Below are positions 4,195 to 22,058 of a stretch of 64,000 nt of DNA, piece by piece. Made by a program: the position numbers and the translations under genes. The first letter of the stretch is position 1. Each line of letters opens with the position of its first letter. This DNA comes from Bauldia litoralis (GTDB taxonomy: Bacteria; Pseudomonadota; Alphaproteobacteria; Rhizobiales; Kaistiaceae). The stretch covers positions 620,001 through 684,000 of the forward strand of contig NZ_FMXQ01000002.1 in assembly GCF_900104485.1 (NCBI RefSeq), read 5' to 3'. Below the pieces are notes generated by a model. It did not search any database, had not been told where the DNA came from, and was given only the letters and a program-made list of their open reading frames with translations.

Positions 4195-4683
4195 ATGTCC
4201 CAGCCAAGGCTCGATGCGATCGACATCAGGATTCTCGCGGAGGTCCAGCGCGAGGGTCGGATCACGAAACTGGCCCTGGCGGACCGGGTCGGCCTGTCGC
4301 CGACGCCTTGCTGGAACCGGCTGAAACGCCTCGAGGAATCCGGCCTGATCGCCGGCTATCATGCCCATCTCGAGCCGAAGGCGTTCGGCGCCTTTACCCT
4401 CGTCTTCATGGAGGTGACGCTGGCCAACCATCGCCAGCATGACTTCGACCGCTTCGAGAAGGCAGTGCGGGCGCTTCCGGAAATCGTCGGCTGCTGGTCG
4501 CTGGGCGGGGGCATCGACTATCTGGTCAAGGTGATCGCCCGCGACATCGATACCTATCAGAGGATGGTCGACAGCCTGCTGGAACGGGAGATCGGCATCG
4601 ACCGGTATTTCACCTACATCGTCACAAGGTCGGTGAAGGATTGGTCCGCCCTGCCCCTCGATCGTCTCGTCGACCCGGCCTGA
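4195..4683 (+). CDS. asnC: Lrp/AsnC-family regulator of ectoine catabolism (AsnC/DoeX-like)
   Basis: 162-aa feast/famine-type DNA-binding protein. The N-terminal helix-turn-helix spans about residues 8-55 (ITKLALADRVGLSPTPCWNR is the HTH), followed by a linker and a C-terminal RAM domain ending near residue 150 (effector-binding part around CWSLGGGIDYLVKVIARD). GGAG precedes the ATG. AsnC-type genes commonly accompany ssd and atf in ectoine degradation clusters (DoeX in Halomonas), acting as an activator beside EnuR. It starts 78 bases from the divergent enuR. The effector is unknown from sequence alone; the cluster implies an ectoine metabolite. Confidence 0.8.
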   Translation: MSQPRLDAIDIRILAEVQREGRITKLALADRVGLSPTPCWNRLKRLEESGLIAGYHAHLEPKAFGAFTLVFMEVTLANHRQHDFDRFEKAVRALPEIVGCWSLGGGIDYLVKVIARDIDTYQRMVDSLLEREIGIDRYFTYIVTRSVKDWSALPLDRLVDPA

Positions 4684-4695
4684 ACCGGCTCGAAA

Positions 4696-4737
4696 GAGAG
4701 ACTCCATCCCCGACGGTGGGGAAAGAGAGAGTCTCTC
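4696..4737 (+). terminator. Compound hairpin after asnC
   Basis: Outer arms GAGAGACTC (4696-4704) and GAGTCTCTC (4729-4737) enclose an inner stem TCCCC/GGGGA (4707-4711, 4718-4722). It follows the asnC stop by 12 bases and precedes ssd by about 100. No T run follows, so it may attenuate read-through rather than terminate. Confidence 0.45.
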
Positions 4738-4838
4738 CCCGTTCCGACGCACATTCAGGCCAAAACGACGGCCGGCACTCCCTAGATAAATGGTCGTGAA
4801 CAGTTCCGCCTTCGCCTTGCGAACAAGGACCGCGACCG

Positions 4839-6332: not shown

Positions 6333-6353
6333 GAGCACCACGGAGTCCATGAA

Positions 6354-7745
6354 ATGCTGAATCGTAACGACCAACTCGACGCCTGGGACCGCGAGAGTTT
6401 CTTCCACCCCTCGACCCATCTCGCCCAGCACGCCCGCGGCGAGACGCCGACCCGCATCGTCACCGGCGGCGAAGGCGTCTACATCGTCGATCGCGACGGC
6501 AAGAAGAGCCTCGACGCTTTCGGTGGGCTTTACTGCGTCAATGTCGGCTATGGTCGTCCCGAGATCGCCGAGGCGATTGCCGACCAGGCAAAGTCACTCG
6601 CCTATTACCACGCCTATGTCGGCCACGGCACGGAAGCGTCGATCACCCTCGCCCACATGATCGCCGAACGGGCGCCCGACCATCTCAACCATGTCTATTT
6701 CGGCCTCTCCGGATCCGATGCCAACGAGACCAATGTCAAGCTGGTCTGGTACTACAACAACGTTCTCGGCCGGCCGCAGAAGAAGAAGATCATTTCGCGC
6801 TGGCGGGGCTATCACGGCTCCAGCCTGATGACCGGCTCGCTGACCGGGCTCGACCTGTTCCACAAGGCGTTCGACCTGCCGCTGGCGCCGGTGCTTCACA
6901 CCGAAGCGCCCTATTTCTTCCGCCGTCCCGACCGGTCGATGGACGAGGAATCGTTCTCGCAATATTGCGCCGACCAGCTTGAGGCGATGATCGTCGCCGA
7001 AGGACCGGACACCGTCGCCGCCTTCATCGGCGAGCCGATGCTGGGCACCGGTGGCATCGTGCCGCCGCCCGCCGGCTATTGGGAGAAGATCCAGGCCGTC
7101 CTCGCCCGCCACGATGTGCTGCTGATCGCCGACGAGGTGGTGACCGCCTTCGGACGGCTGGGTTCGATGTTCGGCTCCGAGCACTACGGCATCAAGCCCG
7201 ACATCATCACCATCGCCAAGGGACTGACCTCCGCCTATGCGCCGCTGTCCGGCTCGATCGTTTCCGACAAGGTCTGGGCGGTGCTGGAACAGGGCACAGA
7301 CGCGATGGGCCCGATCGGCCACGGCTGGACCTACTCCGCCCACCCCGTCTGCGCCGCCGCCGGTGTCGCCAACCTGAAGCTGGTGGACAGCCTCGGCCTC
7401 GTCGACAACGTCCGCGATGTCGGCGGCTACTTCCGCGGCGCGCTCGCCGACGCGGTCGGCGGTCATCGCATCGTTGGCGACGTTCGCGGCGAAGGCCTGC
7501 TGGCGGCGGTCGAATTTGTCGCCGACAAGGACGATCGGACTTTCTTCGATCCCGCCCTGAAGGTCGGACCGCAGATCGCCGCAGCACTCCTGAAGCGCGG
7601 CGTCATTGCCCGCGCCATGCCGCAAGGCGATATCCTCGGCTTTGCCCCGCCGCTCTGCCTGTCCCGGGACGAGGCCGATGTCGTCGTCCAGGCGACGGCC
7701 GAGGCGATCGACGAAGTCGCAAAGTCGCTTCAGGGAACGTCCTGA
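6354..7745 (+). CDS. atf: Class III PLP aminotransferase of ectoine catabolism (Atf/DoeD-like)
   Basis: 463-aa class III (omega) aminotransferase. The PLP lysine is K289 in [17 protein letters not shown]; the preceding D260-E261 ([13 protein letters not shown]) grips the cofactor ring. SGSDANETN (120-128) and RGYHGSS (151-157) are the other family landmarks. The start follows ACGGAG; an ATG three bases upstream would hit a stop at once. In ectoine clusters this enzyme (DoeD/Atf) is assigned to removal of an amino group from 2,4-diaminobutyrate, feeding aspartate-semialdehyde to the dehydrogenase just upstream. By sequence alone it could also act on beta-alanine, GABA or pyruvate-linked amines. 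A terminator hairpin follows. Confidence 0.82.
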
Positions 7746-7799: not shown

Positions 7800-8687
7800 T
7801 CAGGTGAGGACCGGCCGATCGTAGAAGGGAATGCGCTCGACCCGCGGCGACCACGCCCCGCTCGCGACCAGGCCATCGACATGAGCCGCGATCTCCTCGA
7901 GGGTCGCGAACCAGACATTCCCCTTGCCGATCATGTGCTCGATCAGAGCGCGGATCGCCATCGCCGGGCCCGGTCGGCCGCTCACGGCCGGATGCCACAC
8001 AGGAACGAACAGGCCGCCCCATTCCCACAGGGCGTCGAACTCGGCCTTGTAGACCTCCAACGCCCGGTTCGGCGGCGAGATGGTCATCAGGTAATCGAAC
8101 GCCCGGCTCGATACATACTGGTTGTAGTCGTCGACCGAGGCTGGCGGCGGCAGTTCCACCAGCCGCCCGGAATCCGATTGGAGAAGGATCGGAACATCGT
8201 CGGCGAACAGCGAGGAATCGTAAAGGAACCCGGCTTCGATCAGCAGATCGAAGCTATTGCGTGACAGGCCGTAATACGGCGCGCGGTAGCCTCGCGGCGC
8301 CTTGCCGGTCAGGTCCTCGATCCGGGCAATTCCCGCTGCCAGGGCCTCTCGCTCGGCGTCGATCCCCTGCTGGCTCGGCCATTCGTGGAACATGCCGTGA
8401 TGGGCGATCTCGTTGCGGCCGGTCAGGATGTGTTCGACGGGCTTGCGGTACGTGTCGATCACCCAGCCCGGTACGAAGCAGGTTATCGGGACATCGTAGC
8501 CGGCAAACAGATCGACCAGCCTCGGCAATCCGACATGCGGGTCGTAGCGCATCTGCGCGACCGCATGGACCTCGTCGACGACCCCGCCGCGCTTGCCGGC
8601 GTGGACGACACTGTCGGCGTCGACATCGAAGCTGAAACCGACCGCGCAGCGCGCGCTGTTCGGCCAGGGAGGCGGGTTGCGGATCAT
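7800..8687 (-). CDS. NodB-fold polysaccharide deacetylase-like amidohydrolase (HpPgdA type)
   Basis: 295-aa carbohydrate esterase 4-like protein without a signal peptide, so probably cytoplasmic. The metal motifs are present: FSFDVDAD (D21, D23), EIAHHGMFHE (H95/H96, H100) and RGYRAPYYG near residue 135. The overall pattern resembles Helicobacter PgdA-type proteins, a branch that also contains small-molecule amidases rather than only peptidoglycan deacetylases. It is the last gene of a Liv-type importer operon, 30 bases after livF. This suggests that it hydrolyses an N-acyl or cyclic amide group on the imported compound. The substrate is unknown. PuuE-type allantoinases share the fold but are usually longer. 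Confidence 0.75.
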   Translation of the reverse strand: MIRNPPPWPNSARCAVGFSFDVDADSVVHAGKRGGVVDEVHAVAQMRYDPHVGLPRLVDLFAGYDVPITCFVPGWVIDTYRKPVEHILTGRNEIAHHGMFHEWPSQQGIDAEREALAAGIARIEDLTGKAPRGYRAPYYGLSRNSFDLLIEAGFLYDSSLFADDVPILLQSDSGRLVELPPPASVDDYNQYVSSRAFDYLMTISPPNRALEVYKAEFDALWEWGGLFVPVWHPAVSGRPGPAMAIRALIEHMIGKGNVWFATLEEIAAHVDGLVASGAWSPRVERIPFYDRPVLT

Positions 8688-8717: not shown

Positions 8718-9458
8718 TCAGGATGTCCGCACGCCGCCGTCAATGAAAAGCCCGTGCAGGTCTTCGGTGGTGATGTCCGCCGGCTTGCAGTCGAGGGCAT
8801 CCTTGCCGCGCACCAGCACGCAGACCCGGTCGGCCAGCGCCAGGGCACGATTGACATTCTGCTCGACCAGCAGGATCGGGATCGACAACTCGCGATGGAT
8901 CCTGGCGATCGCCTCGAAAACGCTGTCGACCATCGTCGGCGCCAGATCGCTGCTCGGCTCATCAAGGAGCAGGACTTTCGGCTTGAGAAGGAGCGTCAGT
9001 CCGATGGACAGCATCCGCCGCTCGCCGCCGCTCAGCGTGCCGGCCAAGACGCGACGCTTCTCCTTGATCCGTGGAAACAGGGCGTAGACTTCCTCGACGT
9101 CTCGATCGAAGCTCTTCGGCCGCAGGAAGGCGCCCATCTTCAGATTGTCGGCGACGGTGAGGTCGAGGAACACGTTCTGGTTCTGCGGCACGTAGCCGAT
9201 CCCGCTGGCAGCGCGCCTGTGCGCCGCCCATCGGGTGATGTCCTCCCCGGCGAAGGTGATTGCGCCGCCAAGAATGCGGGTCAGTCCCGCCGTCGTCTTC
9301 AACACGGTCGACTTGCCGGATCCATTGGCGCCGAGGATCGTCAGGATCTCACCGGGATGAAGCTGGACTGCGACATCGTTCAACACGGTGATCAGGCCGT
9401 AGCCGGCCGTGACTGCGCGCAGTTCGAGGATCGGTGCCTTCGTCTCGGACTGTGTCAT
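8718..9458 (-). CDS. livF: Branched-chain-type ABC importer ATPase LivF (first system)
   Basis: Second ATPase of a HAAT-family importer, 246 aa. Walker A GANGSGKST spans residues 43-51, the signature reads LSGGERRM, and Walker B with D-loop VLLLDEPSSDLAP. The start overlaps the livG stop by four bases (ATGA), so translation is coupled. The enzyme forms a heterodimer with LivG on the cytoplasmic face of LivHM. The D-loop SSDLAP departs slightly from the usual LAP context but keeps all catalytic residues. Substrate specificity cannot be deduced from this subunit. Confidence 0.9.
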   Translation of the reverse strand: MTQSETKAPILELRAVTAGYGLITVLNDVAVQLHPGEILTILGANGSGKSTVLKTTAGLTRILGGAITFAGEDITRWAAHRRAASGIGYVPQNQNVFLDLTVADNLKMGAFLRPKSFDRDVEEVYALFPRIKEKRRVLAGTLSGGERRMLSIGLTLLLKPKVLLLDEPSSDLAPTMVDSVFEAIARIHRELSIPILLVEQNVNRALALADRVCVLVRGKDALDCKPADITTEDLHGLFIDGGVRTS

Positions 9459-10210
9459 GCCGGTTGTCCGAGATAGGACTGGATAACTTCGGCATTGTCG
9501 CGGATCTCCGCCGGCGTGCCTTCGGCGATCACGGCACCCGCATCGAGCACATAGACGACGTCGCAGACGTTGGAGATCATCTCCATGTTGTGCTCGATCA
9601 GGACGATGGCCCTGCCCTCGTCACGCAACGACCTGAGGAATTCCACCTGCTGCTCGATCAGCACCGGGTTGACGCCGGCAGCCGGTTCGTCGAGCAGCAG
9701 GACCTGCGGATCGGACATCAGCAGCACGCCCATGGTCAGGAGTTTCTGCTGTCCGCCGGAAAGGTTGCCGGCATAGTCATTGGCTTTCTCGACCAGGCCG
9801 AGCCGCTTGAGGATCGCCACGCTCCGGGCAAGGGCGTCCGCTTCCATCGCGGCAACCCTGCCTGGGCGGAGGAAGAGGTCGAACAGCCGCTCGCCGGGCT
9901 GATCGCGGGCGCCGACAAGCATGTTCTGGAGAACCGTCAGCCGCTGCGCGAGGCGCGGGACCTGGAAGGTCCGGCCGATACCCCGGGCCGCGACCGCCTC
10001 GATCCGGCCAAGCGGCAGCGGCTTGTCGTTCAGGCGAACCTTACCCGCGTCGGGCCGATAGATCCCGCTGACGATGTTGAGGAGCGTCGACTTGCCCGAA
10101 CCGTTCGGCCCGACCAGGCCGACAATCGATCCCGGCCGCGCCACCATGCTGACGCCGCGAAGCGCCTGAAAACCACCGAAGGCGATGCTGACGTCAGAGA
10201 CCGTCAACAT
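9455..10210 (-). CDS. livG: Branched-chain-type ABC importer ATPase LivG (first system)
   Basis: 251-aa ATPase from the ATG at 10210 (MLTVSDVSIAFGGFQALRGV); upstream in-frame codons merely read through livM on another frame. Walker A is GPNGSGKST, the signature LSGGQQKL, and Walker B VLLLDEPAAGVNP, which is typical for LivG. The C-terminal extension AEGTPAEIRDNAEVIQSYLG is the LivG tail. The gene overlaps livM by 17 bases and livF by four, consistent with one polycistronic unit livK-H-M-G-F-deacetylase. Confidence 0.9.
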   Translation of the reverse strand: MLTVSDVSIAFGGFQALRGVSMVARPGSIVGLVGPNGSGKSTLLNIVSGIYRPDAGKVRLNDKPLPLGRIEAVAARGIGRTFQVPRLAQRLTVLQNMLVGARDQPGERLFDLFLRPGRVAAMEADALARSVAILKRLGLVEKANDYAGNLSGGQQKLLTMGVLLMSDPQVLLLDEPAAGVNPVLIEQQVEFLRSLRDEGRAIVLIEHNMEMISNVCDVVYVLDAGAVIAEGTPAEIRDNAEVIQSYLGQPA

Positions 10211-11069
10211 TTTGCACCCTCTTGGTTTCCGGGAAGAGCCCCGCGGGCCTGAACAGGAACATGAGCACCAGGATGAGCCCGAAGACGGCGAGGCGCAGGT
10301 TGGCGACGAGATCCGACGGCAGTCCGGACCATTCCGCCAGGAAGCGCGTCGAGACACTCATCAGGATGAGAATCGCGGCACCGATGACAACGCCGATATT
10401 CCGGCCCGGCCCGCCGAGGATGACGGCGGTCCAGACAAGGAAGGTGTCGGTGACCAGGAAGGAAGTCGGTGCGACATAGCCGATGACATGGGCGTAGAGC
10501 ACCCCGGCAACGCCTGCCATCGCCCAGGACACGACCGTGACCCTCATGCGGAAGGACATCGGAGAGCGACCGAGCGTTGCCGCCAGCGTCTCGTCCTCGC
10601 GGATCACCCGCAGCATGCGCCCGAACGGTCCGTTGCCGATCTGCTGCGCAACCGCATAGGCGACGACGCAGAGCGCCACCGCCAGTCCGGCTGCGAGCGT
10701 CCGATCGGGCAGCCGCGAAACGGTGACACCGTCGGCGCCGCCGGCGATCGACGGCACGTTCAGCATCGTCAGCCGGAAGATTTCGCCCGCGCCCAGCGTG
10801 ATCAGCGCCCAGTAGTCCTGCGAGGAGCGCCCTGCCGGCAGGATGACGAGGATACCGGCGATCGGTGCGGCGACCAGACCGGCCACGGCGCCGACCCACC
10901 ACGGAAGGTCGTATTGGACACCGATAGCGGCCGCATAGGCCCCGATGGCGAATGGCAGGATCTGGCCGAAATTCACCAGGCCGGTCATCCCGAACTGGAT
11001 GTTCAGGCTGATCGCCATCACCGACCAGATGGCCACAAGCGTCAGCGCATAGATCGCGAAATCGATCAT
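10194..11069 (-). CDS. livM: Branched-chain-type ABC importer permease LivM (first system)
   Basis: 291-aa inner-membrane permease with roughly eight hydrophobic segments. The LivM coupling loop is visible (GRMLRVIREDETLAATLGRS, then PMSFRMR), and GLVNFGQILPFAIGAYAAA near the N terminus is the hallmark segment of this permease family. It begins two bases after the livH stop and overlaps livG. Together with LivH it forms the channel. Confidence 0.9.
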   Translation of the reverse strand: MIDFAIYALTLVAIWSVMAISLNIQFGMTGLVNFGQILPFAIGAYAAAIGVQYDLPWWVGAVAGLVAAPIAGILVILPAGRSSQDYWALITLGAGEIFRLTMLNVPSIAGGADGVTVSRLPDRTLAAGLAVALCVVAYAVAQQIGNGPFGRMLRVIREDETLAATLGRSPMSFRMRVTVVSWAMAGVAGVLYAHVIGYVAPTSFLVTDTFLVWTAVILGGPGRNIGVVIGAAILILMSVSTRFLAEWSGLPSDLVANLRLAVFGLILVLMFLFRPAGLFPETKRVQNVDGL

Positions 11070-11071: not shown

Positions 11072-11953
11072 CTAGTTCGCCCCCCGTTTGGTCATTGACG
11101 GACGGAGGAGGAGAACCAGGACCAGCGCCAGCACAGCGACGTAATCACGGAACTGGCTCGGCACGAACCACGATTGATCCGACACCAGCGAGCCGAAGTC
11201 GATCGAGATGATGAAGTTCTGCGCCAGCGACAGGAACAACGCGCCGAGCACGGCTCCGAAGACGTTGCTGAGCCCGCCGATGGTGACCGCGGCAAAGACC
11301 GGAAGCAGGATGATGAGGTCCATGTTGGGCTGCAGGCGGGTCTCCAGCGCGATCAGGGAGCCGCCGATCGCCGCATAGGCTCCGGATATGAACCACATCA
11401 GCCGGATCATCCGCTCGCCCGGGATGCCGCGGGTTACGGCCAGATCGTAGTTGCTGGCCAGCGCCCGCAGGCCCGATCCGGTGCGGGTCCGGTACAGAAA
11501 CGCGTGCAGGAGCACCATGAAGGCGACCGTCGCCGAGACGACGATCACGTCGAGTGAGGTGAAGATCGCGCCGGCGAAGCGGATCGGCGTCGTGTTGGTT
11601 TCGATGATGATCGACCCGCCGCCGAAGATCGACGCGACGATGGCGCGGATCAGGAGGGCGACGCCCCAGGAAACGATCATCTTGCCCTCGGGCGAGATGT
11701 GGCGGAGCCGGCTGAACACGAGAATATCGACGACGACCGCCAGTCCACCGACGAAAACGGCGCTGGCGGGAACCGCGAGAATCAACGGCAGGCCAAGTTC
11801 CGTCGCGACATAAGTGGCGTAGCCACCGACCACCGCGAACTGGATGTGCGCAAAATTGGCGAAACGGAGGATCGAATAAGCGAGCGAGATGCCAACGGCG
11901 ACGATGGCGATCTCGCTGGCATAGATGATCGAATTGACGAAGACCTGAATCAC
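11072..11953 (-). CDS. livH: Branched-chain-type ABC importer permease LivH (first system)
   Basis: 293-aa inner-membrane permease. SILRFANFAHIQFAVVGGYA (residues 27-46) is the LivH version of the family motif, and the cytoplasmic loop RTGSGLRALASNYDLAVTRG provides the ATPase contact. It lies 98 bases after livK, separated by a strong hairpin, and two bases before livM. The protein ends RPSMTKRG, close to the usual C terminus. Confidence 0.9.
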   Translation of the reverse strand: MIQVFVNSIIYASEIAIVAVGISLAYSILRFANFAHIQFAVVGGYATYVATELGLPLILAVPASAVFVGGLAVVVDILVFSRLRHISPEGKMIVSWGVALLIRAIVASIFGGGSIIIETNTTPIRFAGAIFTSLDVIVVSATVAFMVLLHAFLYRTRTGSGLRALASNYDLAVTRGIPGERMIRLMWFISGAYAAIGGSLIALETRLQPNMDLIILLPVFAAVTIGGLSNVFGAVLGALFLSLAQNFIISIDFGSLVSDQSWFVPSQFRDYVAVLALVLVLLLRPSMTKRGAN

Positions 11954-12051: not shown

Positions 12052-13173
12052 TTAATCGATCGTCCCGACGGTTTCGAACTTGCCGCCCTTGTACTCGATG
12101 ATGTCGAGCGGCGGATCGATGCGCTGGCCGCGATCGTCCCAGACGATCTTGCCGGTCGCCCCGACATACGACTCGACAACCGACGGCAGTGCCGCAGCGA
12201 TTTCCGCGGACTCGACACCCCCGGCTTCAATCGCCTTGGCAAGGACCATCATCGCGTCATAGCCGTAGTAGATATGCGCCAGCGGCTCGTCTTCGTCCGG
12301 CCATTTCGCCTTGTAGGCCGCAAGCACCGCCGCGCCACCGTCGTTGGCGTAACCACCGTTGTCGACGCCCGACAGCTTGCCGTTCATCCACTCCTCGTTC
12401 TCGACCGCAAAGATCGACGGATAAGCGGCGTACCAGGGTGCATCGAAACCCAGTTCCCGTGCGTTCTTGAAGACCGTCCGCGAATCGTCGCCGTAACCGA
12501 CGCCGACCAGAGCGTCCGGCTCGGCCGCGATGATGGCCTGCACGTCGGCACGGTAGTCCGGTTGTCCCTCGGTATACGCGACTTTTCGAACGATCTTGCC
12601 GCCGGCGGCCTCGAATGCCGCGCCCGCCGCATCGGCGATGCCGGTGCCGAACGTATTGTTGGGAACGATGGTCGCGATCGACCGGGCGCCCTTGTCATAG
12701 ACATACTGCCCGAGTTCCTTGCCGACGATGTTGTCTAGCGGCAGGATCGAGAACAGCGCACCCGGATAATCACCCAGCTTGGCGGAGCTCGATGACGTGT
12801 TGATCAGCACCTTGCCTTCCTGCTGTGCAAGCTCACCGACCGGAATCATCAGGCTTGAACCGCCAAACATGATCACTGCGGGAACCTGGTTGACCTGATA
12901 GAGCTTGGTGGCCGCCGTCAGGGCTTCCTGTGCCTTGTATTCGGAATCCTCGACGATCAGTTCGATCATCTTGCCGTCGATCCCGCCGGCTGCGTTGATC
13001 TCGTCGGCGGCCAGTTCGACGCCGCGCGCCATCTGGAGGCTGGTGTTGACGTCCTGTCCTGTGAGGTTGGCGATGACACCGACCGGAATGGTATCCGCAG
13101 CTAGGAGCGCCCCTGGCTGGGCGACAATGGCTGCTGCCGCAAAGACGGCCGCATTCAATAGATTACGCTTCAT
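12052..13173 (-). CDS. livK: Periplasmic substrate-binding protein of Liv-type importer
   Basis: 373-aa periplasmic binding protein of the peripla_BP_6 (Leu/Ile/Val/amide) family. The signal peptide is residues 1-25 (MKRNLLNAAVFAAAAIVAQPGALLA). The mature part carries GVIANLTGQDVNTS, ELAADEINAAGGIDG (the family helix) and a ligand-loop region MFGGSSLMIPVGELAQQEGK. It is the first gene of the importer operon, transcribed away from the nucleoside hydrolase gene. Family members bind branched amino acids, amides, urea or aromatic acids. The neighbouring hydrolases suggest a nitrogenous compound, but the ligand is not determinable here. Confidence 0.85.
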   Translation of the reverse strand: MKRNLLNAAVFAAAAIVAQPGALLAADTIPVGVIANLTGQDVNTSLQMARGVELAADEINAAGGIDGKMIELIVEDSEYKAQEALTAATKLYQVNQVPAVIMFGGSSLMIPVGELAQQEGKVLINTSSSSAKLGDYPGALFSILPLDNIVGKELGQYVYDKGARSIATIVPNNTFGTGIADAAGAAFEAAGGKIVRKVAYTEGQPDYRADVQAIIAAEPDALVGVGYGDDSRTVFKNARELGFDAPWYAAYPSIFAVENEEWMNGKLSGVDNGGYANDGGAAVLAAYKAKWPDEDEPLAHIYYGYDAMMVLAKAIEAGGVESAEIAAALPSVVESYVGATGKIVWDDRGQRIDPPLDIIEYKGGKFETVGTID

Positions 13174-13439
13174 GGTGTCCCCTTTTCACCGACGCTGTTT
13201 CCGCGTCGCGCTTGGTCGATAGTTAGACGGCGATAAGCCCGAGAAACAGGAAGCAAAGGTTAGACCAGAGATCGCTGTCAGGCGAGGGTTTTTGCTTTTC
13301 GGTCCAATGGAAAGGCGTCTTCCACTCCAGATGGTATCGAGGGTCTTTTCGCGCAGCGCCATTGCTGGACAACGCCGTGGAATCGCCTTCCCATGTCGCC
13401 GAACCGGAGGCCCAGCCCTCCCGGAAGAAGACGGACGAC

Positions 13440-14381
13440 ATGGCCAGCCGCAAGATCATCATCGATACCGACCCCGGACAGGATGATGCCTTTGCCATCC
13501 TGCTTGCGCTCGGGTCACCGGAACTTGAGGTCGTGGGCGTCACCGCCGTTGCCGGCAACGTGCCCGTGTCGAAGACCGAGTGGAATGCCCGACGCGTGCT
13601 TGAACTCGGCGGGCGGCAGGATATCCGCGTCGCCCCCGGCTGTTCGCGGCCGATGGTCAAGTCGCTGTTCACGGCCGAGTACGTGCATGGCGACAGTGGC
13701 CTGGAAGGGTGCGACCTGCCCGAACCGTCGATGCCCGCCCTGGACATCCACGCCATCGACTTCCTCATCGACCGCCTGATGGCCGAACCGGAAGGCGAGA
13801 TCACCCTCTGTCCGCTCGGCCCGCTCACCAACATCGCCATGGCGATGGTCAAGGAGCCGCGGATCCTTGGCCGGATCCGGGAGATCGTGCTGATGGGCGG
13901 CGGCTATTTCGAAGGCGGCAACACGACGCCGGCGGCCGAGTTCAACATCTTCGTCGACCCGCACGCCGCACACGTCGTCTTCACCTCGGGCGTTCCGCTG
14001 ACGATGGTTCCGATCGACTGCACCTACAAGGCGCTAATGACGCCAGCGTGGCTGGAGGAACTCCGGGCGCTCGGCACACGAACCGCCCGCGAGGCGGCCG
14101 GCATGGCCAGCTTCTATCAGGAGTACGGCAACCAGAAATTCGGCACCGACTCCTATCCGCTCCACGACCCCTGCGTGATCGGTTACCTGCTGCGGCCCGA
14201 CCTCTTTCAGGGACGGGCCTGCCACGTCGAGATCGAGACGACATCGCCAACGACCTTGGGAATGACGGTCGTCGACTGGTGGAACGTCACCAAGCGGCCG
14301 ACCAACTGCCACGTCCTGCGCGACCTCGATAATCCCGCCTTCTACGCGCTCATGCTGGAACGGATCGGGCGCCTGCCCTAG
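13440..14381 (+). CDS. Inosine/uridine-preferring nucleoside hydrolase family protein
   Basis: 313-aa protein with the nucleoside hydrolase calcium site DTDPGQDDA at residues 9-17 and the later conserved segments CPLGPLTNIA, VLMGGGYFEGGNTTPAAEFN and DPHAAHVVF. These enzymes cleave the N-glycosidic bond of ribonucleosides, releasing base and ribose. The ATG at 13440 is chosen because the calcium motif then sits at the usual distance from the N terminus; an upstream in-frame ATG at 13362 adds 26 unlike residues. GGAAGAAG lies upstream. It is divergent from livK, and its stop is 10 bases from the end of cofGH. It may process an imported nucleoside-like compound. Confidence 0.85.
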   Translation: MASRKIIIDTDPGQDDAFAILLALGSPELEVVGVTAVAGNVPVSKTEWNARRVLELGGRQDIRVAPGCSRPMVKSLFTAEYVHGDSGLEGCDLPEPSMPALDIHAIDFLIDRLMAEPEGEITLCPLGPLTNIAMAMVKEPRILGRIREIVLMGGGYFEGGNTTPAAEFNIFVDPHAAHVVFTSGVPLTMVPIDCTYKALMTPAWLEELRALGTRTAREAAGMASFYQEYGNQKFGTDSYPLHDPCVIGYLLRPDLFQGRACHVEIETTSPTTLGMTVVDWWNVTKRPTNCHVLRDLDNPAFYALMLERIGRLP

Positions 14382-14391: not shown

Positions 14392-16827
14392 TCATTTCCG
14401 CTGGGCGTAGCGGCCTTCGCCTGCCTCGCCTTTTCGGCGCAGCGGCGTGTTGGCCACATCGGACAGCGGTCCGGCACCGAATGCCGCCGCGCGACGCTCG
14501 GGCGAGACAGCCTCGTAGGTTGTCGTGCGCATCACCGGTTGGCGGCCGATCGAGCGGATGAGCGTTTCCATTCCCTCGGGCGACATTTCCTGGCCATGGG
14601 CGGCGCCGGCCGCGCGCGAGATCGTCTCGTTCATCAGCGTGCCGCCAAGGTCGTTGGCGCCCGCCCGCAGCACGGCCGCGGCACCTTCGGCCCCCATCTT
14701 CACCCACGACACCTGGATGTTCGGAACGTGCGGATGGAGAACGAGCCGGCCGACGGCGTGCATCAGCACTGCCTCGCGGAAGGTGGGGCCCCGCCGCGCC
14801 AGCCCCTTCAGGTACATCGGCGCTTCCATGTGAACGAAGGGCAGCGGCACGAACTCGGTGAAGCCGCCGGTCTCAACCTGGAGGTCGCGGATCGCCAGCA
14901 GGTGGCGCGCCCAGGAGAGCGGCGTCTCCATGTGGCCGAACATGATCGTCGAGGTCGTCCGGAAGCCGGCCTGGTGCGCCGCGCGCATGACCTGCAACCA
15001 TTCGCCGGTCCGGATCTTGTCGGGGCAGAGAATGGCGCGCACGTCGTCGTCGAGAATCTCCGCCGCGGTACCAGGCAGCGTGCCGAGGCCCGCTTCACGC
15101 AGCATCACAAAATAGTCGTCGAGATCGACGCCGAGCGTCGCCGCCCCCTGCCAGATCTCGAGCGGCGAGAAGGCATGGATATGCATCCCCGGTGCGGCCG
15201 CCTTCACCGAGCGACAGATGTCGAGATAGGTCGCCCCGGTGAAGTCGGGATGGATGCCGCCCTGCATGCACACCTCGGTCGCTCCGCGCTCCCATGCCTC
15301 GCGCGTCCGCCGCTCGATCTCGTCAAGTGTCAGGTCGTACGGCGTGCCGCGCAGGTTCTCGCTGAGCTTTCCCTTGGAGAAGGCGCAGAAGCGGCATTTG
15401 TAGGTGCAGACATTGGTGTAGTTGATGTTGCGCGTCACGACGTAGCTGACCGCGTCGCCATTGACCGCGCGACGGAGTTCATCGGCCGCAGCACAGAGCG
15501 CGGCAAGGTCGCCACCACGGGCAGCGAAGAGCGACGCGATCGCCGCCGGCTCAAGGCGTTCGCCCGCCACGGCCCGGTCGATCAGGCGGTTCACCGCCCT
15601 TCCCGTCGCCGGCGCGACATCCAGCGATGCGATGGCCTCGTGCGGTGGCTCGGCATCAATCCCCGGCGACCAGTCGCTGTCGCGGACGAGCCCGGCCGCG
15701 TCCACCCGATGCAGCGCGGCGACGCGCAATTCCGGCGCGAGCCAGCGGTCACCGTCCTGGAGATAGGCCGGGTATATCGGCAACCGCTGGGCGAGCGACT
15801 TGCCGGCCGCCTCGGTCGCCGCCTCGAGCACCTTCAGGTGTGGCCACGGCGCTTCCGGATTGACGTAGTCCGGCGTCACCGGCGACACCCCGCCCCAGTC
15901 GTTGATCCCGGCGGCTATCATTCGCCCGAGTTCGCCTGGAGCGGCCAGGTTCGGCGGCGCCTGAATGCTCATCGCCGGCCCGAAGATCAGCCGGGCAACC
16001 GCGATGGTCCACAGGTGATCCTCGGTCGAGGGCTCCGGAGCATCGGCCATCCGCGTCCCCGGCTTCGCCCGAAAGTTCTGGACGATGATCTCCTGGATGT
16101 GACCATGCCGCTCATGCGCGGCGCGAAGCGCCAGCATCGCCTCTATGCGCTCACGGCGGGTCTCGCCAATGCCGATCAGGAGACCGGAAGTGAAGGGAAC
16201 CGCTGCTTCGCCGGCGCGCTCGATCGTGGTCAGCCGCGCCGCAGGTTCCTTGTCCGGCGATCCGAAATGCGGCCCTCCCCGCTCCGACAGGCGCGCGGAG
16301 GCTGTCTCGAGCATGATGCCCATCGATGCCGACACCGGCCGAAGCGCGGCAAGGTCCGCCGCTTCCATCAGGCCCGGATTGAGATGCGGAAAGAGTCCCG
16401 TCCGGGCGAAGATCGCCGCAGCGACCTCGCGGAGATAGGAGAGCGTCGTTGCATGGCCGAGCGCCGCCAGTTCCTCCCGCGCCGTGCGATAGCGCAACTC
16501 CGGCTTGTCGCCGAGCGTGAGCAGCGCCTCGGTACAGCCGGCCGCCTGCCCCGCTTCGGCGACGGCGACCGCCTCGTCGATGGTGAGGTACGCCCGTTCG
16601 CCGCGTCGTGGCGGATGGGCGAAGGTGCAGTAATGGCAGACGTCGCGGCAAAGCTGGGTCAGCGGGATGAAGACTTTCCGCGAATAGGTCACAACCGAGC
16701 CATATCCGGCATTCCGGATATCGCAGGCGACCGCAAGGAGGCTCGGGAGATCGTCGATCTCGACGAGCCGCAGTGCCTCGTCATCCTCGATGCGCCCCGA
16801 TGCGGCGCGTTTCAGCAACGCATTCAC
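14392..16827 (-). CDS. cofGH: Bifunctional FO synthase (CofG-CofH fusion)
   Basis: 811-aa radical-SAM fusion enzyme that condenses tyrosine with 5-amino-6-ribitylaminouracil to make the deazaflavin FO, the chromophore of F420. The CofG half holds CRDVCHYC (C60, C64, C67) and the CofH half CTYKCRFC (C474, C478, C481), each a 4Fe-4S site. The domain order CofG then CofH matches actinobacterial FbiC. The start is a GTG at 16827 overlapping the cofC stop (GTGA). It is the last gene of the F420 operon and converges on the nucleoside hydrolase gene with only 10 bases between. A fusion in a proteobacterium points to shared ancestry with, or transfer from, Actinobacteria-type clusters. Confidence 0.95.
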   Translation of the reverse strand: MNALLKRAASGRIEDDEALRLVEIDDLPSLLAVACDIRNAGYGSVVTYSRKVFIPLTQLCRDVCHYCTFAHPPRRGERAYLTIDEAVAVAEAGQAAGCTEALLTLGDKPELRYRTAREELAALGHATTLSYLREVAAAIFARTGLFPHLNPGLMEAADLAALRPVSASMGIMLETASARLSERGGPHFGSPDKEPAARLTTIERAGEAAVPFTSGLLIGIGETRRERIEAMLALRAAHERHGHIQEIIVQNFRAKPGTRMADAPEPSTEDHLWTIAVARLIFGPAMSIQAPPNLAAPGELGRMIAAGINDWGGVSPVTPDYVNPEAPWPHLKVLEAATEAAGKSLAQRLPIYPAYLQDGDRWLAPELRVAALHRVDAAGLVRDSDWSPGIDAEPPHEAIASLDVAPATGRAVNRLIDRAVAGERLEPAAIASLFAARGGDLAALCAAADELRRAVNGDAVSYVVTRNINYTNVCTYKCRFCAFSKGKLSENLRGTPYDLTLDEIERRTREAWERGATEVCMQGGIHPDFTGATYLDICRSVKAAAPGMHIHAFSPLEIWQGAATLGVDLDDYFVMLREAGLGTLPGTAAEILDDDVRAILCPDKIRTGEWLQVMRAAHQAGFRTTSTIMFGHMETPLSWARHLLAIRDLQVETGGFTEFVPLPFVHMEAPMYLKGLARRGPTFREAVLMHAVGRLVLHPHVPNIQVSWVKMGAEGAAAVLRAGANDLGGTLMNETISRAAGAAHGQEMSPEGMETLIRSIGRQPVMRTTTYEAVSPERRAAAFGAGPLSDVANTPLRRKGEAGEGRYAQRK

Positions 16828-17510
16828 TGGACCGCCTCCGGGCCGTCAACCGTCGCGCGGAAGCGTGCGCCTATTCCGGAGCGCGCCAGGTAGTGCCCCG
16901 TTGCCCCGTCGTGGTCGAGGATCGCGGCAAGATCGTCCGGTCGGTCGATGTCATGGGCAAGTTCGGGGACGTCCAGACCGCGCCAGCCTATTCCCCGCGC
17001 CTCCGCCGCCCGCTGATGGAGATGATAGCTGCCGGCGCCGAAGCAGAACGGAACCAGGTCGACCGGCCGGGCCACCATCGCGTTCGTACCTTGCCGCCTC
17101 CTGTCCGGAACCAGAGTCAGCGGCGGTCCGTCGGCAGCGGTTGCCAAGAGACTTTCGATTGCAAGCGGGGTGGCGAGCGGAAGATCCGCGTGGAGAACCA
17201 GCATCGACGCGGCCCGCTCACCCAGGAGGGTCGCCGCCGCTCTCGCGACCGCGGCGGTGGTGCCATCGTCAGTCGGATCGGCAAGAACACGAAAGCCGTG
17301 ATCCTGCCCCAACGCGGCAAAGCCGTCATCGCCGGTCACCAGCATGACGCCGGACAGCCCGCGCACCGCCGACAGAGCGGTCAGAACGTCACGAACCATC
17401 GCTTCGGCAAGGTCGGCGCGCTCCATCGGCCCAAGCAGCGACGCAAGCCGCTGCTTGGCCGCCTCGCGACGCTTGATCGGGACGACGCACCAGGGCGCCA
17501 CGGGAGTCAT
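16824..17510 (-). CDS. cofC: 2-phospho-L-lactate (or 3-phosphoglycerate/PEP) guanylyltransferase CofC
   Basis: 228-aa nucleotidyltransferase of the CofC/FbiD family that activates a three-carbon phospho-acid with GTP for F420 side-chain assembly. Family segments visible are VVPIKRREAAKQRLASLLGP (residues 8-27), LVTGDDGFAALG, and LVLHADLPLATPLAIESLL with the metal-binding Asp. It overlaps cofD by four bases and cofGH by four. Whether it uses phospholactate, phosphoenolpyruvate or 3-phosphoglycerate cannot be read directly; the last gives the 3PG-F420 found in some proteobacteria. Confidence 0.92.
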   Translation of the reverse strand: MTPVAPWCVVPIKRREAAKQRLASLLGPMERADLAEAMVRDVLTALSAVRGLSGVMLVTGDDGFAALGQDHGFRVLADPTDDGTTAAVARAAATLLGERAASMLVLHADLPLATPLAIESLLATAADGPPLTLVPDRRRQGTNAMVARPVDLVPFCFGAGSYHLHQRAAEARGIGWRGLDVPELAHDIDRPDDLAAILDHDGATGHYLARSGIGARFRATVDGPEAVQ

Positions 17511-18469
17511 GTCCGAGGCTCCAGTCGACCGGCGAATGCCAGGACCGAACGGGCGAGCGCCTCACGATCCGCCATGCTTTGCATCAGCGTCGGCACGACA
17601 TCGACCGCCACCGGGAATGCCGCCCTGTCGGCTGCGTCTTTGTCGTCGAGCACGAAGCCATCGATCAGGCCCTCATAGTGGGAAGCCACCGCAAGGGCCG
17701 TTACCGGGATATCCAGTTCCGCCATGATCTTGGCGGTCGGTCCCTTGACCGCCTGTCCGCCGATGATCGGCGTCACCGCGACAACGGGAGCCGACGTCGA
17801 ACGGATCGCCGCGCGCATCCCCGGCACCGCGAGGATCGGATCGACACTGAGAAAGGGATTGGACGGGCAGATGACTACAGCGCGCACATCGGGATCGGCA
17901 AGCGCCGCCAGCACCCGCGGGCTCGGCCGGGCGGTTTCGGCACCGTCGAAACGGATCCGCTCGACCCGGGGCTCGCATCGGCGGCCGACGAAATAGCGCT
18001 GGAAGCCCAGCACGCCCTCATCGGTCTCGACGAAGGTCCGAACCGGGTCGTCGCTCATCGGCAGGATCTCGGCGGCAATGCCAAGTCGCCGCGCCAGGTC
18101 GGAGGTTATTGTCGTCAGCGTCTCGCCGGCCTTCAGGCGGAGCGTGCGCTGCACATGCATGGCGAGATCGGCGTCACCCAGGTTGAACCAGTCTTCGCCG
18201 CCAAGTGCCTTGAGCGCGGCCATGAAGGCCCAGGTCTCGTTCGCCCGGCCCCAGCCGCGCTCGCGGTCGGCGAGATCGGCGAGCGTGTAGACGACCGTGT
18301 CGATGTCCGGCGAGACATGCAGCCCGAGATGCTCGAAATCGTCGCCCGTGTTGACCACCACGGTAAGCTGCTCCGGCGTCAGGATCCGATAGAGCCCGAG
18401 GGCCAGCTTGGCGCCGCCGACGCCGCCGCAGATGGCGACGACCTTGCCTGGGATCTCGCTCTTGCTCAT
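17507..18469 (-). CDS. cofD: 2-phospho-L-lactate transferase CofD
   Basis: 320-aa enzyme that transfers the phospholactyl-type moiety onto FO to give F420-0. The glycine-rich N-terminal GGVGGAKLALGLY, the NTGDDFEHLGLHVSPDIDT segment and CPSNPFLSVDPIL near residue 200 are the CofD landmarks for binding FO and the guanylylated donor. It starts with ATG at 18469, overlapping cofE by four bases. Length and motifs are normal, so the enzyme should be functional. Confidence 0.95.
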   Translation of the reverse strand: MSKSEIPGKVVAICGGVGGAKLALGLYRILTPEQLTVVVNTGDDFEHLGLHVSPDIDTVVYTLADLADRERGWGRANETWAFMAALKALGGEDWFNLGDADLAMHVQRTLRLKAGETLTTITSDLARRLGIAAEILPMSDDPVRTFVETDEGVLGFQRYFVGRRCEPRVERIRFDGAETARPSPRVLAALADPDVRAVVICPSNPFLSVDPILAVPGMRAAIRSTSAPVVAVTPIIGGQAVKGPTAKIMAELDIPVTALAVASHYEGLIDGFVLDDKDAADRAAFPVAVDVVPTLMQSMADREALARSVLAFAGRLEPRT

Positions 18470-19236
18470 CGGAAGAGGTCCCGTTCCTTCGGCCGGATCA
18501 GCGCCGCGGCGGGCATGGCATCGCGATCCCAGGCGAGGCCGCGCACCAGAACGGCGGGCAGTCCTTCGTCCGCCTGGCCCATGACCAGCGATGCGGCGGC
18601 GGCGATCTCGTCGGCGAAGCCGATCTCGGTTCCGCGCAATTCACGGCCGAACAAGTCCGCCTCCCCGGTCCGCACGACCAGCGACGGAAGCCCCGCCGCG
18701 CCGATCGCCACTCCGGTCACCCCATGGCGCCACGCGCGGCCGAAACTGTCGGCGATGACGACCCCGATATCGACGCCGAACCGCTCGTCCAGCGCCTGCT
18801 TGAGCCGCAGCGCCGATCCATCGGGATCCTCCGGCAGGAGCAGCGCCAGCTCCCGGCCCTCCGGATGCCGGATATTCGACTGGTCGATCCCGGCATTGGC
18901 CATCACCAGCCCGAGCCGGTGAACCACGATCATGATGCCCGGGACATTGCGCAGGATCGTCCCGGATTCCGACAGGATGAGTTCGACCAGGCGCGGTTCC
19001 TTGCCGGAGACCGCCGCCAGTTCCCTGGCCCGGGCCGAAGGGACGACGGTGGCGAGATCGACCAGCCGGCCCTCTGCCTTGGAAACGATCTTCTGGGCGA
19101 TGACGAGCACATCCCGGTCGCGCGGACCGATGTCCGCCGCCAGGAGCGACCTCGCCAGCATCGCCGGCAGGTCATCGCCAGCTTCGACCGGTGGAAGGCC
19201 GGGCAACGCCGAAAGGGTAACGGTCGGGACAGTCAT
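18466..19236 (-). CDS. cofE: Coenzyme F420-0:L-glutamate ligase CofE
   Basis: 256-aa GTP-dependent ligase that adds gamma-linked glutamates to F420-0. Conserved segments are DVLVIAQKIVSKAEGRLVDL, LVMANAGIDQSNI and the metal/GTP site VVIADSFGRAWRHGVTGVA. It is the stand-alone form without the C-terminal nitroreductase-like domain of actinobacterial FbiB. It is therefore not clear from sequence whether the dehydro-F420 reduction step found in Actinobacteria is needed here or handled elsewhere. It lies four bases after npdG and overlaps cofD. Confidence 0.95.
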   Translation of the reverse strand: MTVPTVTLSALPGLPPVEAGDDLPAMLARSLLAADIGPRDRDVLVIAQKIVSKAEGRLVDLATVVPSARARELAAVSGKEPRLVELILSESGTILRNVPGIMIVVHRLGLVMANAGIDQSNIRHPEGRELALLLPEDPDGSALRLKQALDERFGVDIGVVIADSFGRAWRHGVTGVAIGAAGLPSLVVRTGEADLFGRELRGTEIGFADEIAAAASLVMGQADEGLPAVLVRGLAWDRDAMPAAALIRPKERDLFR

Positions 19237-19239
19237 TCG

Positions 19240-19911
19240 TCAGCTTGGCTTTGCGGTCCCGGTGATCCGGATGCCGGCTCCATCGATCTTGTAGCGACGA
19301 TTGATGCCGATAAGTACACTGGTCAGGGCCTCCGCGACCACCGAATTCGCCAGAGGACCTGCCTCGAGGCCGCGCAGCCCCATCGCGTCCACCAGCGTGA
19401 CGACGATGGCTCGCGCATCCTTGTCGTTGCCGCAGACCAGAACGTCGCAGTCGACGGCTTCGTCCTTTTGCAGCCTGTGCGCCGCAACGTTGTGGAGCGC
19501 CGACACCACCCGGACATCGGACCCAAGACGGTTCTGCGTCGCCACGGCAACCGATCCCTCCGGCGGCAGATGCACGGTGGAAACCTTGGGCGGCTGCAAG
19601 GGCACCGTCGTATCGACGACGATCTTGCCGGACACCACTGGCCCGATTTCGTCGAGGATCGCCGCGTGGCTGGCGAAGGGCACGGCAAGGAAGACGACCT
19701 CCGCCCGAGCGGCCGCCTCGCTGTTTGTGGCGCCGACGATTGCGCTGCCGCCAAGCGCGGCATTCATCTCCGCCGCCGCCGCAACGGCCCTGGCCGCGTC
19801 GCGCGAGCCGATCACCACCGGGTATCCGGCCAGCGCCAGCCGGCGTGCGATCCCCAGCCCGAGGGCGCCAGTGCCGCCGATGACCGCCACGACGGTCGAT
19901 TGATCACCCAT
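19240..19911 (-). CDS. npdG: F420:NADP oxidoreductase (NpdG/Fno type)
   Basis: 223-aa Rossmann-fold enzyme that moves hydride between NADPH and F420. The nucleotide-binding motif is IGGTGALGLGIARRLALAG, with SRD after the second strand (consistent with NADP). VFLAVPFASHAAILDEI, VDTTVPLQ and the C-terminal NSVVAEALTSVLIGINRRYK are family features. The start at 19911 follows AGGAGAGAG; longer in-frame readings run through the neighbouring gene. Since no F420-dependent glucose-6-phosphate dehydrogenase is in the window, this is the apparent source of F420H2 for the oxidoreductase at the head of the operon. Confidence 0.92.
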   Translation of the reverse strand: MGDQSTVVAVIGGTGALGLGIARRLALAGYPVVIGSRDAARAVAAAAEMNAALGGSAIVGATNSEAAARAEVVFLAVPFASHAAILDEIGPVVSGKIVVDTTVPLQPPKVSTVHLPPEGSVAVATQNRLGSDVRVVSALHNVAAHRLQKDEAVDCDVLVCGNDKDARAIVVTLVDAMGLRGLEAGPLANSVVAEALTSVLIGINRRYKIDGAGIRITGTAKPS

Positions 19912-19934
19912 GAACTCTCTCCTGCTGGCCCTGC

Positions 19935-21110
19935 TCAGGCCTTGATGACCAGATCGCGCGGAAACCGGGTCATCACCTCGGGGCTGCCGTTTTCGGTCAC
20001 GCGAAACGTCTCGCTCAATTCGAACCCCCGGTCGTCCTCCCACATACCGAGGATCATGTGAAAGCACATATCGGGCCGCAACACCGTGCGATCGCCCTCC
20101 CGCAGGCTTGCGGTCCTTTCGCCCCAGTCGGGCGGGTAGTTCAGCCCGATCGAGTAGCCGATGCGGGAGGCCTTCTCGTAGCCGGCGCGAGTAATTACAG
20201 CGCGCCATGCAGCTTCGACCTCCTCGCAGGTCACGCCGGCCCGGGCCGCTTCGAGCGCGGTTTCGAGACCTTCCTCGACAACCGCGGCAAGCTTCAGCAG
20301 ATGGTCCGGCGGGCGGCCCAGATAGACGGTCCGGGCGAGAGCGGCGTGGTACCGGTTATGGCAGCCGCCAAGTTCGAGATAGGCGACACTGTCCTGTTCG
20401 TAACGGTCGCCCGACCAGGTCAGGTGCGGCGCGGCGCTCTTGGCGCCGCTGGGAACAGAGGGCAATGCCGCGGGATAGTCGCCCCAGAAGCCGGCGGTGC
20501 CATGGACTTGCGCAGCCATGATCTCGGCCACGGCATCGCATTCGCGGACGCCCGGCGCCACCGCGTCGATGCCCACTTTCATCGCTTCCGAGACGATATC
20601 CGCCGCGCCACGCATCATGGCGATCTCGGCCGGCGACTTGACGATACGCGCCCATCCGACAAGACGGTGGGCATTGACGAAGCGCGCCGACGGCAAGCCG
20701 GCGACCAGTTCGGCATGGGCCTGTGCGGTATAGTACCAGGAGTCCATTTCGACGCCGATCCGCGCCGAACCGAGTTTCCGGCGGAGCAGTTCCCCGGCGA
20801 CTAAAGCCGCCGGATGCAGCGTCTCGGAGTCGACATGGCTCTCCGGATAGGCAACGAGGCTGTCTTCGTCGAGCCAACTCGTCAGCCGCGCCCCTGGCGC
20901 GTCCATTCCCCGACCGATCCATAGCGGCTGCTCGCGGTCGCCAATCACCACGACATACTGGTGCACATAGAATGACCAGCCGTCGTATCCGGTCAGGTAA
21001 TTGAGACTCGCGGGATCGGCGAGGACGAGCACATCGGCCCCGGCCTCGCCCATCGACGCCTTCACCCGCGCAAGCCGCGCGGCATACTCCGCTTTCGAAA
21101 ACGCGCTCAT
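19935..21110 (-). CDS. M24 pita-bread hydrolase resembling ectoine hydrolase (DoeA/EutD)
   Basis: 391-aa protein with a creatinase N-terminal domain (about 1-155) and a pita-bread catalytic domain (160-391). Several segments look like ectoine hydrolase DoeA/EutD as I remember it: TGYDGWSFYVHQ (40-51), SAAPHLTWSGDRYEQD (225-240) and GLNYPPDWGERTASLR (322-337). The metal ligands of true M24 aminopeptidases are missing: the first Asp region reads YLELGG (244-249), the second ALARTV (257-262), and the usual GHGxG is GYSIG (318-322). EutD is likewise metal independent. It is embedded in the F420 operon between the LLM oxidoreductase and npdG. It may open a cyclic amidine or hydrolyse an amide; ectoine itself is one candidate. 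Confidence 0.75.
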   Translation of the reverse strand: MSAFSKAEYAARLARVKASMGEAGADVLVLADPASLNYLTGYDGWSFYVHQYVVVIGDREQPLWIGRGMDAPGARLTSWLDEDSLVAYPESHVDSETLHPAALVAGELLRRKLGSARIGVEMDSWYYTAQAHAELVAGLPSARFVNAHRLVGWARIVKSPAEIAMMRGAADIVSEAMKVGIDAVAPGVRECDAVAEIMAAQVHGTAGFWGDYPAALPSVPSGAKSAAPHLTWSGDRYEQDSVAYLELGGCHNRYHAALARTVYLGRPPDHLLKLAAVVEEGLETALEAARAGVTCEEVEAAWRAVITRAGYEKASRIGYSIGLNYPPDWGERTASLREGDRTVLRPDMCFHMILGMWEDDRGFELSETFRVTENGSPEVMTRFPRDLVIKA

Positions 21111-21140
21111 CCTAAGTGGCCCACCGGGCCTGGGCGCGGC

Positions 21141-22058
21141 TCAGAACAATTCCGGGAAATTGGCGTGGAATGCCCGCACCGCGTCGATATGCGCCTGCGG
21201 GTTGGCCAATCCACCGATCGCCGCCTTGTTCCAGCGCTTCTCTTCCTCGACCCAGCGCTCCGGCATTGTGTTGATGGTGATGTGCGTCGCACCGATCCTG
21301 CGCCAATCGTCGATCTCGGTGCGGAGCTCTTCCGGCGTCCGATCGATGATCGTCATGGTCGCCTCGATGCCGATCGTGTCGGGATCGCGTCCATAGGAGA
21401 CTGCCATCTCTCTCATCGCATCGATGCTTCGCTTGCCGAGATCGTCGGCCTGGAAATTCGGCAGCCAGCCGTCACCGAGCTGCGCCGTCCGCCGGATCGC
21501 CGCCTTGGAGATGCCGCCGATCCAGATCGGGATCGGACGCTGGATCGGCAACGGGTTGATGCCGCCGTCCTCGATCCGGTGATACTCACCCTCGTAGGTG
21601 ATCAGATCGGAGGTCCACAGCTTGCGAAGAACGTCGATCTGCTCATCGACACGCTTGCCGCGATTGCCGAAATCCTCGCCGCAGGCTTCGAACTCCTCCG
21701 GCTTGACCCCGACGCCGATGCCGAGGCGCAAACGCCCGTTCGACAACACGTCCACTTCCGCTGCCTGCTTGGCGACAAGCGCCGTGCCACGCATCGGGAG
21801 CACCAGGATCCCGGTGACGAATTCGATCCGGGTGGTCACCGCGGCGAGATATCCGAAGAGGACAAAGATCTCGTGGAACATGTCCTCCGCGTCATGGACG
21901 TATTTCCAGTCCGGCCGGCTTTTCTTGTTGAGTCCGATGATCTGGTCGAAGCTGGTCAGATGCGTGTAGCCGAGGTCGTCTGCAGCTTGCGAGAAATCCC
22001 GGATGCTGACCGGATCGAGGCCGATCTCAAACTGCGGGAACAGTGCACCAATCTTCAT
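21141..22058 (-). CDS. LLM-class F420-dependent oxidoreductase
   Basis: 305-aa TIM-barrel protein of the luciferase-like superfamily. It opens MKIGALFPQFEIGLDPVSIR. Family segments include FVTGILVLPMRGTALVAKQA (strand and helix with the non-prolyl cis region), LSNGRLRLGIGVGVKPEEFE and PIPIWIGGISKAAIRR. It resembles the Rv2161c-type F420-dependent family. Being the first gene of the F420 operon argues for F420 rather than FMN. AGGAAGG precedes the ATG. The substrate is unknown; such enzymes reduce or oxidise a C-C, C-O or C-N bond. The M24 hydrolase gene follows 30 bases later, suggesting consecutive steps. Confidence 0.85.
   Translation of the reverse strand: MKIGALFPQFEIGLDPVSIRDFSQAADDLGYTHLTSFDQIIGLNKKSRPDWKYVHDAEDMFHEIFVLFGYLAAVTTRIEFVTGILVLPMRGTALVAKQAAEVDVLSNGRLRLGIGVGVKPEEFEACGEDFGNRGKRVDEQIDVLRKLWTSDLITYEGEYHRIEDGGINPLPIQRPIPIWIGGISKAAIRRTAQLGDGWLPNFQADDLGKRSIDAMREMAVSYGRDPDTIGIEATMTIIDRTPEELRTEIDDWRRIGATHITINTMPERWVEEEKRWNKAAIGGLANPQAHIDAVRAFHANFPELF

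Follow-up and report, generated by a model that had tools for sequence, protein, structure and literature searches.

An F420 biosynthesis operon of Bauldia litoralis within a recurring gene block, very probably a catabolic system

The window analysed here is a 64,000-nucleotide stretch of the Bauldia litoralis genome (contig NZ_FMXQ01000002.1, positions 620,001 to 684,000), in which seven minus-strand genes spanning 14392-22058 encode a luciferase-like monooxygenase (LLM)-class oxidoreductase, an M24 hydrolase, NpdG, CofE, CofD, CofC and CofGH. Together with the adjacent genes for a nucleoside hydrolase, a Liv-type importer and a CE4-fold protein, they make up a block that we consider very likely to be a recurring F420-linked catabolic system. 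Read from the LLM gene, the first three junctions of the operon are gaps of 30, 26 and 3 bases, and the last three are overlaps of 4 bases each. Coordinates and profile matches thus bear out the original prediction of a seven-gene minus-strand operon with short gaps and 4-base overlaps. They also agree with its claim of a full F420 gene set accompanied by an NADPH-dependent reducing enzyme, as NpdG, CofE, CofD, CofC, CofG/CofH and the LLM (TIGR03619) each score above the curated NCBIfam cut-off. The operon comprises:

21141..22058, minus strand: LLM-class oxidoreductase, probably F420H2-dependent, operon gene 1 (TIGR03619, 261.2 bits, cut-off 166.9)
19935..21110, minus strand: M24-fold C-N hydrolase, relative of ectoine hydrolase and creatinase (TIGR02993, 434.5 bits, cut-off 613)
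19240..19908, minus strand: NpdG, NADPH:F420 oxidoreductase (TIGR01915, 191 bits, cut-off 150)
18466..19236, minus strand: CofE, F420-0:L-glutamate ligase, without the C-terminal reductase domain (TIGR01916, 268 bits, cut-off 181)
17507..18469, minus strand: CofD, the sole copy genome-wide (TIGR01819, 312 bits, cut-off 257)
16824..17510, minus strand: CofC guanylyltransferase (TIGR03552, 144 bits, cut-off 105)
14392..16827, minus strand: CofGH (FbiC), FO synthase (NF006687, 1143 bits, cut-off 1018)

The true extent of NpdG is 19240-19908, the open reading frame call at 19240-20208 having too early a start. In CofC (16824-17510), a Gly replaces the Ser of 3-phosphoglycerate-specific CofC (FGxxS motif, read by eye), which suggests that ordinary F420 is made. 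A scan for promoters and terminators gave a signal near chance level. The other genes of the block are:

13437..14381, plus strand: nucleoside hydrolase, pyrimidine-type (closest solved relatives 6BA0 and RihA; DTDPGQDD and HDPC motifs)
12052..13173, minus strand: Liv-type periplasmic binding protein (Peripla_BP_6), kept in the block
11072..11953, minus strand: LivH-type permease, kept in the block
10194..11069, minus strand: LivM-type permease, kept in the block
9455..10210, minus strand: LivG-type ATPase, kept in the block
8718..9458, minus strand: LivF-type ATPase, kept in the block
7800..8687, minus strand: CE4-fold protein of the PuuE/HpPgdA/cyclic-imidase branch (Pfam PF01522; fold matches 3RXZ, 3QBU and 3CL6)

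The nucleoside hydrolase gene lies 10 bases from the end of cofGH, convergent with it and divergent from the Liv block. A second unit on the minus strand, made up of the Liv and CE4 genes, begins 263 bases past the nucleoside hydrolase gene. The distance of 10 bases between the operon and the adjacent block had therefore been given correctly, but a shared transcription unit does not follow from it: with the nucleoside hydrolase on the opposite strand and convergent, this spacing is no sign of co-transcription.

The M24 protein served as query in a scan of ~85,000 species genomes by short exact peptide patterns, so that further members may exist. This yielded eight alphaproteobacterial loci at 66-77% identity (a Hyphomicrobiales metagenome-assembled genome (MAG), four Ancylobacter, two Martelella and a Rhizobiaceae MAG) and one locus at 60% identity in a gammaproteobacterial MAG; G414, a relative in the window's own family, was added from a separate search. 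In all ten alphaproteobacterial genomes, window included, the near-colinear order is LLM, M24, (cof genes), opposite-strand nucleoside hydrolase, LivJHMGF and CE4, and at least one cof gene lies inside the block in nine of them. Linkage of the LLM and M24 genes is thus conserved outside this genome, and the Liv importer and the presumed "NodB" deacetylase co-occur in all ten blocks, two points that the original prediction had put forward for checking. As these ten genomes belong to several families, the linkage is more than chance. The gammaproteobacterial MAG retains only the trio of LLM, CE4 and M24. In eight relatives (the four Ancylobacter, the two Martelella, G414 and the Rhizobiaceae MAG), CE4 is followed by genes for an S58 (DmpA/BapA-type) peptidase and an Lrp/AsnC regulator (S58/P1 peptidase at L032:18934-20049, L035:18948-20069, L120:4044-5153 and L125:6189-7292); the peptidase was not found in the window. 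An aminotransferase is encoded near the block in the four Ancylobacter, G414, the MAG G401 and the Rhizobiaceae MAG. Among homologues on plasmids, cof genes are common, and no single plasmid carries most of the operon.

The presence of an LLM gene beside cof genes, which the original prediction had implied to be odd, was rejected as unusual in itself, since LLM-NpdG-CofE-CofD-CofC-CofGH is a common arrangement in Alphaproteobacteria; CofD was found in 59 of 385 sampled alphaproteobacterial genomes. An M24 gene inside this arrangement is uncommon, and it is the block with M24, nucleoside hydrolase, LivJHMGF and CE4 that departs from the ordinary. This common order would also suit an ordinary F420 biosynthesis operon with unrelated genes alongside, a reading that is contradicted by the recurrence of the M24, nucleoside hydrolase, Liv and CE4 genes in several families while the surrounding cof content varies, and to which we give almost no credence.

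The 11 LLMs of the system (that of the window and ten others) form one clade with support 100/98. At position 39, which aligns with the catalytic His of Fgd, all 11 have Gln, against His in 19 of 19 homologues from other Alphaproteobacteria-derived LLMs; the system LLMs, with their remodelled active-site positions, further show His instead of Tyr at position 55, Lys at 119, Glu at 121 and a 15-residue insertion at 266-280. Of the 385 alphaproteobacterial genomes, 36 encode a strong homologue of the LLM, and CofD occurs in 35 of these 36, compared with 59 of all 385 (Fisher p ~1e-32, only a guide as the genomes are related); the one without it is 63% complete and has congeners with CofD, and the MAG G401 (see below) is a further exception. 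Asked whether it falls with F420-dependent or FMN-dependent families, the LLM groups with F420-linked proteins, and from its sequence it probably uses F420. It thus resembles the TIGR03619 F420-dependent LLMs in passing their family cut-off and in tracking F420 synthesis, and differs from them as a distinct clade marked by Gln39 for His, K119, E121 and the insertion. The two other LLMs of the genome that score above the Pfam cut-off are nearest FMN-type families, in a search that covered the LLM family only. LLM enzymes such as Fgd oxidise with F420, and NpdG is reversible. On this precedent the LLM could instead take a hydride from a ring or an alcohol, with NpdG then making NADPH; this is improbable in our estimate, as each of the 11 system LLMs has Gln in place of the His that acts as base in Fgd.

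The supply of F420 was followed across the cluster genomes. Exactly one CofD was found in 10 of the 11, and in nine of these ten it lies within the operon, downstream of M24; of the ten genomes tested for CofH, nine gave a match (all but the MAG G401/G385; G414 was outside this test). For F420 reduction, this genome has NpdG; Martelella, G414 and the Rhizobiaceae MAG have the gene for a TIGR03554-type glucose-6-phosphate dehydrogenase (FGD) next to the cluster, and in Ancylobacter FGD is encoded elsewhere in the genome (one checked: 419 bits for a trimmed protein, cut-off 420). All alphaproteobacterial cluster genomes that were checked for NpdG or FGD have one of the two, so that F420 would be kept reduced. 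In Ancylobacter (L122, G386:C30), the FO synthase gene is far from the cofD-carrying catabolic operon, the F420 genes being split over the genome.

The MAG G401 (behind L031) weighs against a dependence on F420: it is scored 100% complete and has the entire block, including an LLM of 84% identity, and no match to CofD or CofH was found in it. Either its cof contig is unbinned or F420 is salvaged; the case may also reflect an F420-free function of the LLM. It would then fit an FMN-dependent, RutA-like monooxygenase with the cof genes as accidental neighbours, as would the predicted LLM structure, a low-confidence model (mean predicted local distance difference test score 63) that matches FMN enzymes as well as Mer and does not inform on the cofactor. 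However, the LLM family tracks CofD, the protein passes TIGR03619 and reaches only 61 bits on the RutA model (cut-off 498), and a flavin reductase gene was not identified in the window operon, so that we regard an FMN enzyme as very unlikely.

The two hydrolases differ from their first assignments. The M24 protein, taken at first for an ectoine hydrolase, aligns over its full length with the solved DoeA, but its 434.5 bits on the DoeA model TIGR02993 stay below the cut-off of 613, against 764 for the true DoeA/EutD encoded elsewhere in the genome; in the tree, the 11 cluster M24s form one clade (support 100/96) apart from this EutD. Judging from an alignment with prolidases and from knowledge of the family, the usual M24 metal ligands appear lost, as in creatinase and DoeA. 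Likewise, the CE4 protein had been called a NodB-type polysaccharide deacetylase, and it scores 19 bits on the NodB model TIGR04243 (cut-off 240). Its top matches in sequence and fold searches are 3RXZ, HpPgdA and PuuE, and it is a member of the PuuE/cyclic-imidase small-substrate branch. It is like PuuE, HpPgdA and the cyclic imidases (HxnM, Pseudomonas putida imidase) in fold, length and apparently cytoplasmic location, no obvious signal peptide being found, and it retains the HHGxxHE motif; unlike PuuE, it scores under the cut-off of the allantoinase PuuE model (TIGR03212, 73 bits, cut-off 424.6). Relatives of this branch, the fungal cyclic imidase HxnM and the P. putida imidase, open cyclic imides (PMC9304392; PMC3084791), and the block's CE4 protein is a probable, predicted cyclic imide or ureide hydrolase. 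Two CE4 homologues on plasmids lie beside a two-component flavin monooxygenase and an ArgE/DapE deacylase (L171, Aminobacter) and beside an agmatinase-like protein and a cytosine permease (L172, Gemmobacter), neighbours that hint at wider roles in N-heterocycle breakdown.

The best solved relatives of the nucleoside hydrolase, whose gene keeps its position throughout the ten alphaproteobacterial loci, are the cytidine/uridine-specific hydrolase 6BA0 and RihA. It scores below the curated cut-offs of UriH and RihA (324 and 314 bits versus 450 or 433), which are still its best families, and the alignment shows that the catalytic Ca-binding and HDPC motifs are kept.

From the observed gene identities, conserved linkage, clade membership and association of the LLM family with F420 genomes, we infer a redox direction, an order of hydrolysis and a substrate. 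With candidates for a reductase, a cyclic imide hydrolase and a C-N hydrolase in the trio, together with a pyrimidine-type nucleosidase and an importer, breakdown of a pyrimidine nucleoside is the simplest reading. The Liv-type ATP-binding cassette importer would bring the compound in, the nucleoside hydrolase would free the base, and the LLM would saturate a ring double bond with F420H2; the PuuE/imidase-like CE4 protein would open the resulting cyclic imide or ureide, the metal-free M24 hydrolase would cleave the remaining amidine or ureido C-N bond, and a beta-alanine-like amino acid product would pass to an aminotransferase and an aldehyde dehydrogenase. That the block is such a self-sufficient F420H2-dependent catabolic pathway for an N-heterocycle, with a pyrimidine nucleoside's base as the likeliest case, we put at a little under even chances; a pyrimidine nucleoside is the best single guess for the substrate, held tentatively. 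The original prediction of a nitrogenous compound that is taken up, hydrolysed and reduced with F420H2 accordingly stands as a hypothesis, with the conserved linkage and the LLM-CofD tie in its favour.

The proposed logic of ring reduction, cyclic amide opening, ureido or amidine hydrolysis and delivery of an amino acid to a transaminase is the same as in the reductive pyrimidine (Pyd/PYD) pathway of dihydropyrimidine dehydrogenase, dihydropyrimidinase and beta-ureidopropionase. The latter uses NAD(P)H rather than F420H2 and shares no homologous enzyme with the block, whose reactions are predicted: no homologue of PydA/PreA, hydantoinase or beta-ureidopropionase is among the genes identified in the cluster. 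RutA was found in none of the 11 cluster genomes, and PreA was absent from seven of them. The block may conceivably be a third bacterial route for the pyrimidine ring beside Pyd and Rut, in which LLM, CE4 and M24 replace the three classical enzymes and for which F420 is chiefly made in these Alphaproteobacteria, although we would sooner bet against this than for it. The idea that the F420 enzyme cleanly replaces the Pyd reductase was not upheld: PreA is present in four of 11 cluster genomes and, among relatives that lack the cluster, in 16 of 21 (Fisher p ~0.05, confounded by taxonomy).

Besides the MAG G401, several observations weigh against the pyrimidine pathway. A genuine PreA is encoded in this genome (on another contig, 698 bits), in G414 and in both Martelella, and hydantoinase-family proteins occur in nearly all of the genomes; given this coexistence, uracil is no exclusive substrate. 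The nucleoside hydrolase gene does not share the strand of the operon, and the gammaproteobacterial trio comes without it. Uracil alone does not account for the S58 peptidase of the relatives. The aminotransferase and aldehyde dehydrogenase encoded in the window are part of the neighbouring ectoine cluster, although they could serve both pathways. Cytosine, thymine or a modified base would fit the coexistence with PreA better than uracil, and one may speculate that the S58 beta-aminopeptidase-like protein then cleaves a beta-alanine-type amide.

The same F420H2 pathway logic could also act on another N-heterocycle (an ectoine-like tetrahydropyrimidine, a pyridine, a hydantoin or a modified pyrimidine), the nucleoside hydrolase then working on an unusual N-glycoside. 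The nearest relative of the M24 protein is ectoine hydrolase, an enzyme that opens a tetrahydropyrimidine ring, and the aminotransferase, aldehyde dehydrogenase and Lrp/AsnC relatives of the clusters are sister to ectoine-pathway proteins; the normal Pyd reductase in four of 11 genomes and the conserved S58 protein fit such a substrate as well. Set against this, the nucleoside hydrolase resembles pyrimidine-specific enzymes and a complete-looking ectoine system with a true DoeA is already present in this genome, and we see about one chance in three that it is correct. Ectoine catabolism itself (DoeA/EutD, DoeB, DoeD/Atf, DoeC/Ssd, AsnC, EnuR) shares an M24-superfamily hydrolase with the block and, with several of the clusters, related aminotransferase, aldehyde dehydrogenase and Lrp/AsnC genes. 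It lacks the Liv importer, nucleoside hydrolase, LLM and cof genes, and the block's M24 protein falls below the DoeA cut-off and makes up a clade of its own.

In the literature searched on F420 with pyrimidines, nucleosides or Ancylobacter, we found no such pathway and no description of the gene set, in line with the original prediction that none had been described. The actinobacterial degradation of picrate and dinitrophenol likewise starts aromatic-ring catabolism with an F420H2-dependent LLM reductase, but on another type of ring, with other partner hydrolases and in another phylum. According to a 2021 review, experimental studies of bacterial F420H2-dependent reductases and F420-reducing dehydrogenases had not extended beyond Actinobacteria, and the role of F420 in non-actinobacterial bacteria needs experimental work (PMC8498797). 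The block suggests a first concrete job for F420 in Alphaproteobacteria and, if the substrate is a pyrimidine, would add a non-homologous version of a textbook pathway. With a candidate client enzyme beside the cofactor genes and the other two LLMs being FMN-like, this role is directly testable in cultured Ancylobacter and Martelella.

A complete-looking ectoine/hydroxyectoine cluster, a separate system, directly adjoins the F420-linked block. Its uptake and degradation genes fill window positions 1-7745 (182-7745: EhuC, EhuB, EhuA, EhuR, AsnC, Ssd, Atf), and it extends to the left of the window with EutC and EutD (L065, G000:C16:606001-621000), EutD lying ~3.3 kb outside. The window's aminotransferase and aldehyde dehydrogenase were rejected as members of the F420-linked pathway, as AsnC-Ssd-Atf by EhuR/EhuA-C matches the ectoine cluster of Shinella. 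This aminotransferase groups with ectoine enzymes, and the aminotransferases associated with the clusters form a sister group with modest support (84/83).

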